Shown here: piece by piece, positions 18,771-25,866 of the stretch | Layout of the letters: each line of letters opens with the position of its first letter | Numbering within the stretch: position 1 is the stretch's first letter | Virus record (IMG/VR): IMGVR_UViG_3300049893_001380 | Span: 1-28,131 of that record | Strand: one strand, 5' to 3' | DNA from: a virus | Length of the DNA stretch: 28,131 nt | The notes under the pieces: model-generated | Databases searched by the model: none | Told to the model about the DNA's origin: nothing | Seen by the model: only the letters and a program-made list of their open reading frames with translations | Translations under genes and position numbers: made by a program

Positions 18771-20039
18771 TTATGGGTTTAATGGAAAGCAAATTCTCAT
18801 TGCGTTTTCAGATTGCAATGTTGATCCCCAGATACAGTCGTTTACGAACCCTCTTTGATTTTGCCCGAATAACGAACCATAATATGCTCTTATAGAAACG
18901 CCACTTTCTGGATCTGCTTTATTTGCAGTTGGGAATGGAATTTCCTCTGGAAGACGCGGCATTGCCAAGAATAAAGAATCACCAGACCATACCATTCCTG
19001 CTCTGTGATCAGGAATCATTTGTATCTTCATGCCAGCAACAATATTCTTGTTAATGTTCTGATTCTGCGTTGGCTGTGAGCAAAGACCTGGAGAGATGTT
19101 CAATACAACAGTTGTACCTGAAGCATCAGCGCCAGCAGTTGCTCTAATTTGAACTTGGTTAGCAGATACTTGGTGTCCAATAAATGTCAAATAACGAACA
19201 TTTAATGCAGATGATGTTTGATCAACGAAATAGCCTAAGTCATTAGCATTGATAACGCCAGTGTTACCACTGAAAGAAGCGTCGCATGTGCAAGTAATCT
19301 GCGTAATATTTAAACCAGTTGGATCATTCGTGCTCACAACAGTCAATTGTTTTTTAGCAGTTGTGTTTCCATTACCGATTAAACCGGCATATTGTATAGG
19401 CAACAAGTTGGATTTGTAGAAATCTGCATCTGCATATCTGCCTAAATCCCAAGACATGCGTAATTTCTTGTTATCATCTACGACAAATTGGTTCAACATT
19501 GTGTTAACTATTCCTGGAACATTGACATCAGGAATAATTACGCGTTTAGCATTTTTAGCCGATCCATAGTTATCAAAATAAGACAACATGGTAGCCAATT
19601 GTCCTATGGAGTTAATAGCTGTTACGCCATCACCATAGAAACGATATGTTTTGCCAAGAATATTTTTGTTTGCTATATCAGTTTCTACTTTTGTACCTAA
19701 TTCTAGCACAGCAGATTTTCCGAATTTTTCCATATATTCTTTAACGTTGAACAAGAATTGCTGTGCGCTGAAAGCATAAGCGACGTTTGCAGATTCTGAG
19801 CAAGTCAATGATTGAACGCGTTGTTCGCTGTTCTGGAAAACGGCAACTAAGCTATTAGTTGTTGTGAAACGTGGTGGCAAATCCCATGTCACGGTATCAC
19901 CCAAGTTAGCTTCTTTGTCTTGGAAGTTTTGGAATTTTTTGTTGGAAAGATTGACTAAAGCAAACGAGTTCAACAAGTATGCATTTAATCCTGGTTGGTA
20001 CGTCTGTACCGCCTGTAAAACATTATTAGGAAGAGCCAT
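18771..20039 (-). CDS. Major capsid protein (P22 gp5-like coat)
   Basis: This 422-residue protein begins MALPNNVLQAVQTYQPGL and contains KKFQNFQDKEANLGDTVTWD, LPPRF, and FSAQQFLFNVKEYMEKFGKS, which match the opening of the P22 coat family (HK97 fold with an inserted domain). The length is close to P22 gp5 (430). The region at about 230-310 (KKQLTVVSTNDPTGLNITQI and onward) is the likely inserted domain. CGGAGAATTATAA precedes the start. It follows the scaffold gene, as in P22. The 78 bases between the two contain no gene. Confidence 0.9.
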   Translation of the reverse strand: MALPNNVLQAVQTYQPGLNAYLLNSFALVNLSNKKFQNFQDKEANLGDTVTWDLPPRFTTTNSLVAVFQNSEQRVQSLTCSESANVAYAFSAQQFLFNVKEYMEKFGKSAVLELGTKVETDIANKNILGKTYRFYGDGVTAINSIGQLATMLSYFDNYGSAKNAKRVIIPDVNVPGIVNTMLNQFVVDDNKKLRMSWDLGRYADADFYKSNLLPIQYAGLIGNGNTTAKKQLTVVSTNDPTGLNITQITCTCDASFSGNTGVINANDLGYFVDQTSSALNVRYLTFIGHQVSANQVQIRATAGADASGTTVVLNISPGLCSQPTQNQNINKNIVAGMKIQMIPDHRAGMVWSGDSLFLAMPRLPEEIPFPTANKADPESGVSIRAYYGSLFGQNQRGFVNDCIWGSTLQSENAMRICFPLNP

Positions 20040-20117: not shown

Positions 20118-20861
20118 CTATCCTCTTAACCAATCTTGAGAACGCAAGTCTGTAACAGTCATAGAGCCACTATCAACACCAGCCGTTGAGGGTCGTTCTT
20201 GACTTAATGGAGCGTTAGGAACGGGTTGTTTTACCGCATCTTGATTTGATTTAATTCCATCAGATATCTTTTTAAGTACTTTAAAAGCCCTATCAGGATT
20301 AGATAATACTGCCGCAAACTGAGGGATTTTTTCAGGATTCTTTCCTAGTTCGTAAATAATATCTGCAGCATTATCAAACTTGTTAAATAATGGCGCAGTA
20401 TAATGATTTACGACATCGCTCATATCACGAGTAACGTCATCCCAATCTTGATACTTCTTGGCAGCCTCTTCAAATGAATCAGCCAACCTATTAGCTTCTA
20501 GCTGCATCTGTCCTTCTAAATATTTCTTTTGAAGGACTTGCTCAACTTTGGCGCCAAACTCATCTGGAGCAACTCCTTGGTTGTCTTGAGGAGATTGGTA
20601 TTGTCTTATCAATTCGGCTTTTGCTTGCTCATAAGCGCTTTGCTTTGCAGCAGCAGTCGCTCTTGCCAATTCGTCTCTTGTAAAAGTTCTTTCATGTCTA
20701 GCCTGCGTCTGCTCAACTGCTTGCGATGCCTGTTGTTGCTCTTTAGGAGCTTCATAAACATTAGTAGTTGTATTAGATTCAGCGCTAGAAACAGAAGGGG
20801 CTTGCACCTCTTGTGTTGACAAATCATCTACTTGCGTAGACATTGATTGCTCATCAGTCAT
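20118..20861 (-). CDS. Scaffolding protein
   Basis: I start this 247-residue protein at MTDEQSMST, preceded by GAGGT; the frame runs 15 codons further up without such a site. It is Gln/Ala/Ser-rich, with a disordered N-terminus, long charged helices (AKYEQAKAELIRQY-like text around the middle, and KVEQVLQKKYLEGQMQLEAN), and a C-terminus ending SQDWLRG. Composition and position between portal and coat are those of P22-type scaffolds, which guide procapsid assembly and exit through coat pores. P22 gp8 is 303 residues, so this is shorter. The minus promoter at 20955-20983 lies about 95 bases upstream of the start. Confidence 0.75.
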   Translation of the reverse strand: MTDEQSMSTQVDDLSTQEVQAPSVSSAESNTTTNVYEAPKEQQQASQAVEQTQARHERTFTRDELARATAAAKQSAYEQAKAELIRQYQSPQDNQGVAPDEFGAKVEQVLQKKYLEGQMQLEANRLADSFEEAAKKYQDWDDVTRDMSDVVNHYTAPLFNKFDNAADIIYELGKNPEKIPQFAAVLSNPDRAFKVLKKISDGIKSNQDAVKQPVPNAPLSQERPSTAGVDSGSMTVTDLRSQDWLRG

Positions 20862-20954
20862 GATTACCTCATTTCTACTATTGACCCCGTAACGGTATTT
20901 CCTCAAGTACGATTGGTAGCGACTATTTTATCCGCATAGTTGCGTTATCACCCA

Positions 20955-20983
20955 TTTATATTATTAATAACAATGGTTGTCAA
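20955..20983 (-). promoter_or_regulatory. Sigma70-type promoter for the scaffold-coat-tail operon
   Basis: On the minus strand a consensus TTGACA (20978-20983) is followed after 17 bases by TATAAA (20955-20960). Transcription would begin near 20948, leaving a leader of about 85 bases before the scaffold start. This promoter is needed because the portal gene upstream is on the other strand. The first DnaA-like box starts four bases beyond the -35 box. Confidence 0.72.
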
Positions 20984-20986
20984 TAG

Positions 20987-21073
20987 TTATTCACATAGTT
21001 ATTCACAAAATATTGCTATTTATTTACATGATTATTAGCAAAATATCATTACTTATTCACATAGTTATTCACA
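20987..21073 (+). repeat. Four DnaA-box-like repeats (TTATTCACA) in two pairs
   Basis: Four identical TTATTCACA sites fit the DnaA-box consensus TTATNCACA, at 20987-20995, 20999-21007, 21053-21061 and 21065-21073. Members of a pair start 12 bases apart, and the pairs are 66 bases apart. A one-mismatch site, TTATTTACA, lies between them at 21020-21028. The surroundings are very A+T-rich. They fill the space between two divergent promoters, and the last overlaps the plus -35 box. They could be a replication origin, a DnaA-responsive operator or a site for a phage regulator. Confidence 0.65.
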
Positions 21074-21096
21074 ATTTATGCGACTAGGGCTATACT
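21068..21096 (+). promoter_or_regulatory. Sigma70-type promoter for the portal gene
   Basis: TTCACA (21068-21073) is followed after 17 bases by TATACT (21091-21096). Each box is one base from consensus. Transcription would start near 21103, 60 bases before the portal ATG. The -35 box is part of the fourth DnaA-like repeat, so a protein bound there would compete with RNA polymerase. Confidence 0.65.
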
Positions 21097-21163: not shown

Positions 21164-23377
21164 ATGGCCGAACTAGCACAAAAATATCAAGATGAATTAC
21201 CAAGGATTAAAAGAAACATAGAGAATTCTTATTCTTGGTTCAAAGAAAACTACGATAGATTCAATGCTTTTAGAAAATATATATTCAAGGAGCAATTAGA
21301 TGAGAACTATTTAAACGTGCTTAGAACTCTTAATAAGCCACAATTAGAATTTAATATACTAGAAGCTTACATATCACGGCTTAAAGGGGAGTTTTCCAAA
21401 CAAGAGCCATCCACAGTTGTATCTGCAGACCATGGAGCACCGGTAGATGCTAGAACAATTAAAGCGGTTGAAGACCATTTCAGATTCATATTAGAAGAAG
21501 CTAAGAAGAGCAATACAATCTACCAAAATTATGACGACACTCTAAGCGGCGGGTTTAGTGTGCTTAAAGTTTGGACAGATTATATCCATGAGATGAGTTT
21601 TGACCAATGTATTAAGCTATCTAGAGTCTACCATCCTGCTTTATGTGGCTTTGACCCACTTGCAAAAGATCCTCATAAGGGTGATGGAAGATTCTGTTTT
21701 GAGATATTCCCACGAGAAGAAATGGAATTTAAGCACGATAACCCAAATATAACTCTAGATAACGTTAAGTTCACAAGATCAACAGACAACTACACAGGAA
21801 TAGGAGGAGTAGGTGGATTTCAATGGTCTTATCAAAATCAAAAAGAAAAGATTCTATTGTTAGTAGATTATTATGAAAAGAAAAAGAAGCGCGTAAAAAT
21901 AGTCAAGACTGCTGATAGTCCAATATTAGGCAAGGGAAGGGTAATGACAATGGATGGATATAAAAAGATGGTTGATGCATGGGACAATATAGTTCCAGCG
22001 CCAGCTATTGTTGGGCAACCAAGATGGTCTACTATAACAACAATATGCAGATACAAGTTAATAGAAGATCAAATAGTATCGTATGAAGAAACAGACTACT
22101 CTAAATTGCCTCTAATATTTGTTGATGGCAATTCTGAAGTAATGCAGGACGCTACAAGCGGAAAAATAAGTCAAATTACTAGGCCATACATATTCCATGC
22201 AAAAGGAATGCAAGATTTAAAAAACTATGCTGGTAATGCTCAAGCGTCAGAGTTGGAAAACATAATCCAACATAAGTTCATGATAGCTGAAGAGGCTATA
22301 CCAGAAGCAGATGATTATAGAAATGCATATAAAGATATACAGAATGCATCACTTCTAGTATACAAGGCCTATTCAGACAAAGAGCAGATGAAGCCTCTAC
22401 CACCTCCTCAGGTAGTTGCTAGACAAATGATTCCTCCTCAAATATCAGAGACATTTATGATGGCTGAGAAGACTATACAGAATCAATTGGGCTCTTATGA
22501 TGCAGCTCTTGGAATAAATGATAATCAGTTAAGCGGGGTAGCTATAGTAGAAGCAGCGACACAATCAAATGCGGCGGCCATGCCATACATAGTGAATGTC
22601 ATGACTGCTTTATCTAGAGCATTTGAGATTATATTAGATTTGATTCCTAAGTATTACGTTACGCCTAGGACTATTCCTATATTTACAAGAGATGGCAAAA
22701 GAGCATATCAAATAATAAACGACCAACAAAATCCTGAATCTGTTAATATGAAATATGACGATAACGTATTGACAGTTAGAGTAGAAGCGGGTTTGAACTT
22801 TGCTATACAGAAGCATCGGGCTTTACAGCAGATAATAGGACTATCTTCGTCTATGCCTATATTTGGTCAGTTTATGAATACAGCAGGTCTGCAAGTCCTT
22901 TTAAATAATCTAGAAATTAAGGACATAGATATTCTTAAAGATCTAGCCGCTAAGTATCAGCAAGAACTAGAGCAACAAAAACAAATAGCCCAACAGCAAC
23001 AACAACAGGCCATGCAGAATGATCCAAGGGTCATGAAAGAACATAACGCTAGAATCAAACTTCAACTAGAAGACAAGATAGAAAGCGATAAAGTGGCGGT
23101 GCAATCAGGTGAGTTGGCTATATCAGAACAGAAGCTTGAGATAGAAAGACTCAAAATATTAGCTCAAATAGAGGAAAGCAAGCGTGCAGCTATAGTTAAT
23201 ATAGATAAGCATATGGCCGAGAAAGAAAGAGCCATGGTAGACCTTGCTATCAAGAAACTACAAACCCATCATACATTACATATGGACCATGGCAAGCATG
23301 AAAGAGAAGAAAGAAGGCTTAAGAGACAAGAGAATCAGCAAGATGAATCGAAAGAGATTGATGAGAATTATATATAA
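21164..23377 (+). CDS. Portal protein (P22 gp1-like)
   Basis: This 737-residue protein is close in length to P22 gp1 (725). The opening helix text (YQDELPRIKRNIENSYSWFK), RPQ-like KPQLEFNILEAYISRLKGEF, ILEEAKKSNTIYQNYDDTLS with GGFSVLKVWTDY, and FDPLAKDPHKGDGRFCFE match the P22-type portal family. The last about 150 residues form a Gln-rich coiled coil (QKQIAQQQQQQAM onward), the counterpart of the long barrel. The portal forms a dodecameric ring for DNA entry and binds terminase and gp4. AAGAGGATTT precedes the start. It is the only morphogenesis gene on the plus strand. I see no clear terminator in the 68 bases after it, where it converges on the large terminase gene. Confidence 0.92.
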   Translation: MAELAQKYQDELPRIKRNIENSYSWFKENYDRFNAFRKYIFKEQLDENYLNVLRTLNKPQLEFNILEAYISRLKGEFSKQEPSTVVSADHGAPVDARTIKAVEDHFRFILEEAKKSNTIYQNYDDTLSGGFSVLKVWTDYIHEMSFDQCIKLSRVYHPALCGFDPLAKDPHKGDGRFCFEIFPREEMEFKHDNPNITLDNVKFTRSTDNYTGIGGVGGFQWSYQNQKEKILLLVDYYEKKKKRVKIVKTADSPILGKGRVMTMDGYKKMVDAWDNIVPAPAIVGQPRWSTITTICRYKLIEDQIVSYEETDYSKLPLIFVDGNSEVMQDATSGKISQITRPYIFHAKGMQDLKNYAGNAQASELENIIQHKFMIAEEAIPEADDYRNAYKDIQNASLLVYKAYSDKEQMKPLPPPQVVARQMIPPQISETFMMAEKTIQNQLGSYDAALGINDNQLSGVAIVEAATQSNAAAMPYIVNVMTALSRAFEIILDLIPKYYVTPRTIPIFTRDGKRAYQIINDQQNPESVNMKYDDNVLTVRVEAGLNFAIQKHRALQQIIGLSSSMPIFGQFMNTAGLQVLLNNLEIKDIDILKDLAAKYQQELEQQKQIAQQQQQQAMQNDPRVMKEHNARIKLQLEDKIESDKVAVQSGELAISEQKLEIERLKILAQIEESKRAAIVNIDKHMAEKERAMVDLAIKKLQTHHTLHMDHGKHEREERRLKRQENQQDESKEIDENYI

Positions 23378-23445: not shown

Positions 23446-25866
23446 TTATCTTCCTCCAAATGCTTTGTTTTTTGCTTGTGAAACTAAATTAGCCTGCCTC
23501 ATAATATCTTTTGCTATTGAGCTTTGTTTTGCTTCTGATGGTTTTACATACAATTTAGATATTAGACTTCGGCTAAGTTCTATATCTATTGCATATGCCA
23601 TTGTATCACAATTAGATACTAGGATATCATTGGCATAATATACACCGATACCGTTAACACAAAGATTGTAAACGTCTTGTGTCTCTTCGTTCTCGCGCTC
23701 TTTTGGCTTCATTGAATTTATAGCATTCGTGAGAGCAGTATCTTGCATTACATGATTTTGCTTCGAATTCTTTTTTACAAATGCAGCAAATATATTTCTT
23801 AACTTTATTGAAACTGTTTTTAGCATTTTGCCTATGCCATTCTCTGCCTTCATTACTTCTATGCCATGCTTTTGCTTGCTCTCTGATACGATTAAGGTGG
23901 TCAATCTGAGCGATTGCAAGAGGAATTCCTTTACGTTTCTCAACATGCATTTTAAGATGTTGCTTATTAGAAAGACATTCCAGGTTGCTATAGTTGTTAT
24001 TAAGACAATCACCATCCTTATGATGAATAATATAGCCTTTTTGAACTGTTTTCCCGCTATAAAATTCCCAAATAGCCACATGCAGTCCCTTAGCATACTT
24101 TCTTTTTGTATAGTCATCTGATTGGCTAAGATAATATCTTTTCGAGCCCATAAGTTTATATTTGATTCCATTAAATATAATAATTTCTTGTATTTCCATT
24201 TAAATATGCCTCCAAATGATAGCATATCTAAACAAGAATCGTCGGTCAATGTATCCAGTCGCTTAAACTCATTATCGCTAAAGATAGGATGCCCTGTTGT
24301 TCCTATAAGATTCTTATACCTAATTACCGATTTGTTTATCCCACTCATTCCGCATGACAATACTCTTCGCAAACCAAACGGAGTAATAACAAAGTCTTTC
24401 TTTGTTATTGTTTCAATATTTTTATATCCAAATAATGTAGCTATTTTTGTCCCAGCAACAAAACAAATATCGTCAAATCTATGAGTGTTATTAGCCGTTA
24501 TCTTTCTGACATGATCTAAACACATGTTTGTATGAGTTCCATATCTAGGCAATGACACTAGATGTTTAGCAAGATATGGTTGAGCAGCTAAAAATCTGGC
24601 TGTTTTGCTATTAGATCGTCCATCAGATGTCGTCGCATTACATTGTATATCTATAACTTGTATTCCATGATATTTACTTAGAAGAGACAATAGAGTTGTG
24701 CCAGTACTTTTCTTTTCAATTGCTACGGCTGAAGGCTTAACATTATATTGCAAACATTTATTATAGAATGCTATAAACTCACTCTCCAAGTCCTTAGGTT
24801 CTACCCTTATCTGTACGCATTCCATCCAATGTAAAGCTACCTGATCAGCAATATTCCCTATAGCAATAGGCTTATACAAACCCCACAAACTAAATACTGT
24901 AGCGTCATTATAAGTCTTAGATGTCTCTGCAGTGTCAACTGTTATAAAAGATGCCAATATATTCGGTTCTAACTCTAATAGAGGAAACCAATCTGGCTTA
25001 AATATACCGCCACCAGAAGGCTGAGGATTTTGTTGATATTGGGCAGCAAAAGTATATGGCTCCTGCTCCTGCATCTTAAGTAATTGCTCAGATGTATGTA
25101 TACGAGGATCTAAAGCATTGTTATAGCTATCAAGAGCAGGTATAACCAATGAATGCCAACTATCTTCTTTCATCAAATGCGCAGTTAAGTCTGCTTCATG
25201 AACTCTTTGCCCTATGTTAATTGTGGGAGTTCTGTCTCCATTGTTACGACGGCTAAGAGCAGTGTTATAATACCAGTCTATACTTCCTTCTCTAACAACA
25301 TCTGAAGATGCTTCATCTGGCTTTATTAGATCGTCAAATACCATAGCCCCAGTAAATCTATCTATTGTATACTTAACGCCTGCTCCTCGACCGGTAATAG
25401 TACCTCCTGTTCCTGCAGCATATACACAACCACCAGCAGAAGTTTCAAAATTACCTTTACTATAAACAACATCAGACATTTCTACGCCAAATATAGTTCT
25501 ATATGAAGGCATAGACATTATTTCTCTTATTGTTTGAGTTTGCTTAACTGCTAAATCATAGCTATAGCATATATACAGATAGTTGCTATCAGGATATCTT
25601 GCCATAGTCCATGCTATAAAGTGGATTAGAAGTTCTGACTTGCCATATCTAGGTGGCACGTTGATATTAAGTTGGGTTGTTTCTCCCTTTGCAACCTTTG
25701 ATAATGCTCTACATATCTGTATGTAATGCGATTCTCTAGAGATAGGAAACGACATTTCGAAAGGACGACCCGTGCGTAGCTCATAGAAATACTGCGTAAA
25801 ACGCAACAGAGATGCTAATAAGTCTATTTTAAGCTCTTCTGTATTTAGGCGTCTATCTGTTATCAC
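23446..25866 (-). CDS. Terminase large subunit precursor containing an intein
   Basis: This 806-residue precursor (GTG start) would give a 521-residue packaging motor after splicing. The ATPase has a terminase-type Walker A (VPPRYGKS, about 70-77) and Walker B (AMVFDDL, about 174-180). The RNase-H-like nuclease has ITVDTAE (D311) and AVAIEKK (E384), and a third acidic cluster FDDI/CDTMAYAID (D465, D466, D754) that is split by the intein at 468-752. It packages DNA through the portal and cuts it at head filling. The GTG start overlaps a 21-codon membrane-peptide gene. The frame stays open through 182 codons that also encode an HNH enzyme in another frame. Confidence 0.93.
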   Translation of the reverse strand: MITDRRLNTEELKIDLLASLLRFTQYFYELRTGRPFEMSFPISRESHYIQICRALSKVAKGETTQLNINVPPRYGKSELLIHFIAWTMARYPDSNYLYICYSYDLAVKQTQTIREIMSMPSYRTIFGVEMSDVVYSKGNFETSAGGCVYAAGTGGTITGRGAGVKYTIDRFTGAMVFDDLIKPDEASSDVVREGSIDWYYNTALSRRNNGDRTPTINIGQRVHEADLTAHLMKEDSWHSLVIPALDSYNNALDPRIHTSEQLLKMQEQEPYTFAAQYQQNPQPSGGGIFKPDWFPLLELEPNILASFITVDTAETSKTYNDATVFSLWGLYKPIAIGNIADQVALHWMECVQIRVEPKDLESEFIAFYNKCLQYNVKPSAVAIEKKSTGTTLLSLLSKYHGIQVIDIQCNATTSDGRSNSKTARFLAAQPYLAKHLVSLPRYGTHTNMCLDHVRKITANNTHRFDDICFVAGTKIATLFGYKNIETITKKDFVITPFGLRRVLSCGMSGINKSVIRYKNLIGTTGHPIFSDNEFKRLDTLTDDSCLDMLSFGGIFKWKYKKLLYLMESNINLWARKDIILANQMTIQKESMLRDCMWLFGNFIAGKQFKKAILFIIRMVIVLITTIATWNVFLISNILKCMLRNVKEFLLQSLRLTTLIVSESKQKHGIEVMKAENGIGKMLKTVSIKLRNIFAAFVKKNSKQNHVMQDTALTNAINSMKPKERENEETQDVYNLCVNGIGVYYANDILVSNCDTMAYAIDIELSRSLISKLYVKPSEAKQSSIAKDIMRQANLVSQAKNKAFGGR
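23611..24465 (-). mobile_element. Intein in the terminase nuclease motif
   Basis: It spans residues 468-752 of the precursor, 285 residues. Block A is C468-FVAGTKIATLFG, with the nucleophile Cys. Block B is IGTTGHPIFS, with the TxxH signature (H526), followed by an N4-like LDTLTDDSCLDML. Block F is VYNLCVNGIGVYY (732-744) and block G is ILVSN752, followed by +1 Cys753. The C-terminal 22 residues line up without gaps with canonical inteins of the form VFDLTVPGPHNF..., except that the block F His is Gly741 and the penultimate His is Ser751. About 175 residues between blocks B and F are not an in-frame endonuclease but the other-frame reading of the HNH gene. Confidence 0.92.
23654..24199 (-). 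CDS. HNH homing endonuclease nested in the intein in another frame
   Basis: This 181-residue protein is complete in itself. GGAGG (24209-24213) lies nine bases before the ATG. The codon before the ATG is TAA in the same frame, so it cannot be read in from upstream. The N-terminus has YYLSQSDDYTKRKYAKGLHV and AIWEFYSGK. The HNH core is GYIIHHKDGDCLNNNYSNLE, then CLSNKQHLKMH (H59/H60, the NNN/N72 region, H81). The C-terminus has a CxxC...CxxxC zinc motif (C138, C141, C155, C159). Such enzymes cut intein-free alleles to spread the element. Relative to the terminase frame it covers residues 556-738 and its stop lies inside intein block F. Confidence 0.93.
   Translation of the reverse strand: MEIQEIIIFNGIKYKLMGSKRYYLSQSDDYTKRKYAKGLHVAIWEFYSGKTVQKGYIIHHKDGDCLNNNYSNLECLSNKQHLKMHVEKRKGIPLAIAQIDHLNRIREQAKAWHRSNEGREWHRQNAKNSFNKVKKYICCICKKEFEAKSCNARYCSHECYKFNEAKRARERRDTRRLQSLC

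Follow-up and report, generated by a model that had tools for sequence, protein, structure and literature searches.

The head-gene module and its box array

The window, that is the whole stretch of DNA analyzed here, comprises 28,131 bases from a single IMG/VR virus record, which is incomplete, at 28 kb compared with about 37–40 kb for long relatives. It contains the head module of a podophage-like virus, with a P22-type portal, a PHROG 283 coat protein and a terminase, and an array of DnaA-box-like sites takes up the space that separates the two −35 boxes of the predicted divergent portal and scaffold-coat promoters. The features of this part of the window are as follows.

18771..20039, minus strand: major coat protein gene (PHROG 283)
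20118..20861, minus strand: scaffold gene, assigned by position and by similarity to the scaffold genes of relatives, without a PHROG match of its own
20862..20948, minus strand: 5′ leader of the scaffold operon, a predicted double-pseudoknot RNA downstream of the scaffold promoter (start estimated)
20955..20983, minus strand: predicted scaffold-coat promoter, TTGACA 20983–20978, 17 bp, TATAAA 20960–20955 (by eye)
20980..21079, plus strand: three 33-bp direct repeat units bearing the six sites (starts 20980, 21013, 21046)
20987..20995, plus strand: DnaA-box-like site 1, TTATTCACA, exact match
20999..21007, plus strand: DnaA-box-like site 2, TTATTCACA, exact match
21020..21028, plus strand: decayed site 3, TTATTTACA, 1 mismatch
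21032..21040, plus strand: decayed site 4, TTATTAGCA, 2 mismatches, placed by the register of the 33-bp repeat
21053..21061, plus strand: DnaA-box-like site 5, TTATTCACA, exact match
21065..21073, plus strand: DnaA-box-like site 6, TTATTCACA, exact match, containing the −35 box of the predicted portal promoter
21068..21096, plus strand: predicted portal promoter, TTCACA 21068–21073, 17 bp, TATACT 21091–21096 (consensus match only)
21164..23377, plus strand: P22-like portal gene, opposite in direction to terL and scaffold

In portal relatives (40–50% identity) terL, portal, scaffold and coat are all co-directional. The portal is inverted in L197 too, and both portal and terL are inverted in L220 (the same contig as L350), so the inversion is not peculiar to the window assembly. 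Its extent relative to scaffold-coat differs among the window, L197 and L220/L350, and no inverted repeats of note that would make the portal an invertible segment were found. The terminase large subunit ORF of the window (23446–25866, minus strand) has an intein-like insertion at about residues 470–745, judged by eye, and inside this insertion, in another frame of the same strand, lies an ORF of 181 aa for an HNH_3 endonuclease (23654–24199, minus strand), both frames being open over about 540 bp. There is also a gene for tRNA-Met (CAT) at 1641–1715 on the minus strand, which has an Rfam match as well. A search for the host through prophages gave one doubtful Myxococcales bin only and was not used.

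The four identical TTATTCACA sites that an earlier note on this DNA had described, at 20987, 20999, 21053 and 21065 on the plus strand, are the only TTATNCACA matches in 28 kb and agree with the consensus of the DnaA box, a 9-mer with a free fifth base. The spacings given there were confirmed, at 12 bp inside pairs and 66 bp from pair to pair; the fifth near-match is the TTATTTACA at 21020, in a decayed middle unit, and the stretch described as A+T-rich measures 79% A+T. Units 2 and 3 of the 33-bp repeat have 74% and 88% identity to the first unit, and with the decayed middle unit counted the full layout is one of six sites spaced 12-21-12-21-12. At such distances, close to one and two turns of the helix, the sites would lie on roughly the same face of the DNA. 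In 400 dinucleotide shuffles of the whole window there were never more than two sites within 90 bp, and 5000 shuffles of the 302-bp intergenic region never gave more than two, so that by shuffling the four sites are not a product of chance. The exact sites are not independent draws, because they are carried in the 33-bp direct repeats.

The overlap with the portal −35 box, also part of the earlier description, is real, in that TTCACA lies inside the last site and the predicted promoter matches the consensus at 10/12 positions. At the other end of the array the scaffold −35 box TTGACA is 3 bp from the first site, which on the minus strand reads TGTGAATAA, followed by CTA and then TTGACA.

Boxes at the scaffold and portal promoters of relatives

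Portal relatives taken alone are without boxes near the portal, which would favor rejecting a role for the array, and this was reversed by closer relatives, found by coat protein. L183 and L184 (66% coat identity) have TTATCCACA arrays ahead of the portal, where L233 also has an array, and separate TTATACACA or TTATCCACA boxes ahead of the scaffold. The portal and scaffold arrays of L184 are 2.7 kb apart, the portal boxes pointing toward the portal and the scaffold boxes away from the scaffold. Inversion of the portal with its own boxes would have joined two such arrays in one orientation, leaving two pairs back to back as in the window; flank similarity between the two pairs shows local duplication too.

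Among 86 non-redundant loci, boxes lie 890–1040 bp upstream of the coat start, just ahead of the scaffold leader, and the carriers of this cluster are the window, L183, L184, L190, L191, L220, L233 and L234. In the 330 bp upstream of the scaffold gene, TTATNCACA occurs 14 times, in seven loci among 77 relatives (the window not counted), with 13 of these sites sharing one orientation, and it ranks first among 560 same-letter permutations upstream of the scaffold (mean 1.42, sd 1.43). With the window included, box density is 0.70 per kb upstream of the scaffold and 0.043 per kb elsewhere in the same loci. Position 5 is C, T or A in homologous arrays, the other eight bases being fixed by the search pattern. 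On a coat-protein tree, for which bootstrap values are rough, box carriers fall on at least five separate branches, with the window, L183 and L184 clustering together. The arrays may have been gained repeatedly at one place or may be an old feature lost many times, and both histories would point to function.

The position of the final box is also fixed. It ends 3 bp upstream of the predicted −35 box in the window, L183, L184, L220, L327, L333, L370 and L406. The arrangement is box-CTA-TTGACA in the window, L220 and L333, with the variants box-CTA-TTGACT in L184, box-GTG-TTGACT in L183 and box-CTA-TTTATA in L234; the box-CTA-(−35) geometry of the window scaffold promoter is thus shared with L184, L220 and L333. 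Conservation of the 12-base spacing had been proposed for checking, and the spacing recurs in L333, where five TTATCCACA sites at 21-21-12-12 precede CTA-TTGACA, the distances being the same 12 and 21 bp as in the window.

When IMG/VR was scanned, in both orientations, for two boxes followed by TTGACA within 24 bp, such pairs were common in many phages among the matches listed. Because they are frequent, closeness of boxes to TTGACA does not by itself mark out this kind of promoter; a gap of exactly 3 bp and the gene that follows do. With the distance to TTGACA set at 3 bp, a gene-blind search for two boxes covered IMG/VR completely and returned 12 stretches, eight of them distinct (L370 occurs as four near-identical copies), and five of the eight distinct sites lie 98–170 bp upstream of scaffold and then coat (L327, L333, L350, L354/L406, L370). 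The coat is of PHROG 283 in L327, L333, L370 and L406 and was identified in L350 by tblastn with the coat of the window, and PHROG 8865 scaffolding is found in L327, L333 and L406. L402, with six boxes and a 4-bp gap, is of the same kind. In L313 the boxes lead, by sequence reading, to a putative small terminase, a GroES-like protein and a large terminase, and at the 3-bp-gap sites of L314 and L318 no such gene was seen. The portals of L354, L370 and L402 are only 22–25% identical to that of the window.

The exact 21-mer occurs in 20 stretches of IMG/VR, several of which are unrelated phages with TTATTCACAT arrays, and is taken as a lead only. Arrays resembling AGTTATTCACAT, with spacings of 11–12 and 19–23 bp, were seen in L009, L014, L016, L018, L020 and L022, some beside structural genes; these have T throughout at position 5, perhaps reflecting another binder. 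Among the matches listed, L292, L298, L303, L309, L343 and others have two TGTGGATAA boxes upstream of TTGACA, and in this group a third box lies inside the −35/−10 spacer of apparent sigma-70-type promoters.

A possible replication origin, and host DnaA or others as candidate binders

The earlier note had offered the array as a replication origin or a DnaA-responsive switch, and the two halves of that claim have fared differently: the switch has strong comparative support from the promoter-linked arrays and the 3-bp gap, and the origin did not gain such support. If the array were the origin of the phage, DnaA on the boxes would melt the adjacent A+T-rich DNA, and a tandem row of six sites, 12 and 21 bp apart, in such DNA would suit this, as would a DnaD-like helicase loader encoded by G003, which could act after DnaA; moreover, in the genomes of G001 and G003 the only clustered boxes are these arrays. 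Nevertheless, boxes are absent from most relatives, the link of 3 bp to a −35 box is fixed, and instead of the single compact locus with a nearby replication gene typical of oriC there are two arrays in L184 and a distance of 10 kb in G003, a genome complete by its 1,796-bp terminal repeat, between a DnaD-like/O-like initiator gene at 7.3–8.1 kb and boxes at 18.4 kb. Cumulative skew, suggested in the earlier note as a check, rises monotonically through the array of G003 with no inflection, and the local change of skew sign in the window follows the inverted portal gene. In G010 and G018, two DnaA boxes accompany iteron arrays elsewhere, at genes of replication type by sequence reading. Since the initiator of G003 and the iterons of G010 and G018 lie elsewhere than the arrays, relatives place their origins with replication genes. 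The only repeats of note in this region are the box units, and no replication gene was identified in the window. The two arrays of L184 and the fixed promoter distance would rather speak for transcription, and we consider an origin at this locus quite unlikely.

Comparison with known origins gives a similar picture. Bacterial oriC arrays share with the window tandem TTATNCACA boxes in one orientation and A+T-rich surroundings, but the present array is without dnaA or dnaN neighbors, has no skew inflection as judged from G003 and is split at two promoters in L184. The likely iteron origins of G010 and G018 likewise have two same-orientation DnaA boxes, but these are 18 bp apart beside repeated iterons, and the window has neither iterons nor a replication gene there. 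Likely origins of relatives, with iterons and two same-orientation DnaA boxes 18 bp apart at replication-type genes, are placed at L522 2061–2087 and L523 2719–2745.

A regulator encoded by the phage, rather than DnaA, could bind TTATNCACA-like sites at head promoters as a late-gene switch. The gene for it might lie off the contig, the window being incomplete, G003 does encode a small HTH protein, and the exclusively TTATTCACA arrays of other phages could reflect a dedicated protein. It is unlikely, however, in that a regulator and its site would be expected to diverge together and one 9-mer, its fifth base free, is shared by phages at only 22–25% portal identity; a limited look found no candidate common to box carriers. 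Titration of DnaA of the datA type would be another way for the boxes to act. Many phage copies would then serve as a decoy, blocking host initiation or holding back the host cycle, and four consensus sites per genome, exact in the window, could at high phage copy number tie up much of the DnaA in the cell. There would be no need for a decoy to lie at the scaffold −35 box with fixed spacing and orientation in distant phages, and as the purpose of the array it is very improbable, although titration could be a side effect. That the sites arose by chance and local duplication, without function, would accord with the pairs sitting in duplicated 33-bp units, but the boxes recur at homologous promoters, beyond chance by the permutation test, as well as on separate branches and among distant phages, which makes this explanation hardly credible.

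The array is probably a regulatory element of two head-gene promoters, most likely bound by host DnaA. We infer from the sequence comparisons that host DnaA would be the binder, and it would fit better than a phage protein because of the free fifth base and the same 9-mer across distant phages. No DnaA domain IV (PF08299, Bac_DnaA_C) was found in 18 phage records, the window and several relatives among them being incomplete, with 10 of 14 control genomes positive. DnaA bound to tandem boxes adjoining a −35 box would alter recruitment of RNA polymerase, so that expression of scaffold and coat, and here of the portal too, would track DnaA availability, i.e. the replication state of the host and the number of competing phage genomes. 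This suggests that the phage may time or tune head production by sensing host DnaA. The promoter-proximal box immediately upstream of the scaffold −35 is positioned where an activator could help polymerase, whereas on the portal side the last box overlies the −35, so that a protein bound there would stand in its way; the sign of regulation may be proposed with less certainty than DnaA as the binder.

Some observations count against a DnaA switch. Exact boxes are lacking in 70 of the 78 relatives, and because of this the boxes are not essential; a consensus scaffold −35 box is present whether boxes are present or absent, and the four exact sites of the window came partly from one duplication. 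The cultured relatives checked are without arrays near the portal and scaffold genes, which also counts against it, and their portal–scaffold gaps are under 100 bp where measured.

As a transcription factor, DnaA is known from a limited number of bacterial genes and from lambda. Like the window, E. coli nrdAB and other DnaA-controlled promoters (dnaA, mioC, gua) have boxes in the promoter region; the predicted DnaA boxes of the window differ in being in a phage, at structural genes, and in uniform tandem arrays abutting the −35 box. At nrdAB the effect of DnaA depends on its level and nucleotide state, with activation when ATP-DnaA is low and repression when it is high, and DnaA also acts on phage lambda (review PMC8203912). 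Lambda pR and ori-lambda, which host DnaA stimulates, provide a case of phage transcription responsive to host DnaA, as proposed here, but there the effect concerns replication proteins and the activation of the origin by transcription, in contrast to the scaffold-coat operon of the window.

It is possible, though we advance it tentatively, that these promoters form a class of late promoter that recurs among phages and has arisen independently several times. A phased array fixed 3 bp from the −35 box would couple the capsid operon to host DnaA, with head production timed by DnaA titration as phage genomes accumulate. If so, replication state and genome copy number would serve such phages as the cue for head assembly, with no need for a late regulator encoded by the phage, and tandem boxes, 3 bp and TTGACA would define the promoter architecture. 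In the literature searched there was no report of a box-array capsid promoter, and nothing relevant was found on autoregulation of the P22 scaffold.

The scaffold leader RNA

Downstream of the scaffold promoter lies a conserved leader RNA, which its ACCG...GGG core reveals at 34 of 78 loci, with leaders in the range L183–L274 besides that of the window. It comprises a hairpin with a pseudoknot and then a second pseudoknot ahead of the Shine-Dalgarno sequence. Sequences, which are related, were aligned by MAFFT and the structure was picked by eye; pairing held in 80/96 for P1, with 21 double changes, in 140/163 for the first pseudoknot, with 31, and in 121/128 for the second, with 7, and none of 2000 shuffles reached the observed pairing. 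The predicted double-pseudoknot structure is thus supported by covariation. Rfam at gathering scores gave no match to the leader in the window, L183, L184 or L190. As a guess, the leader might control translation of the scaffold. The leader of the window itself has a compensated change, UAC/GUA for GAC/GUC.
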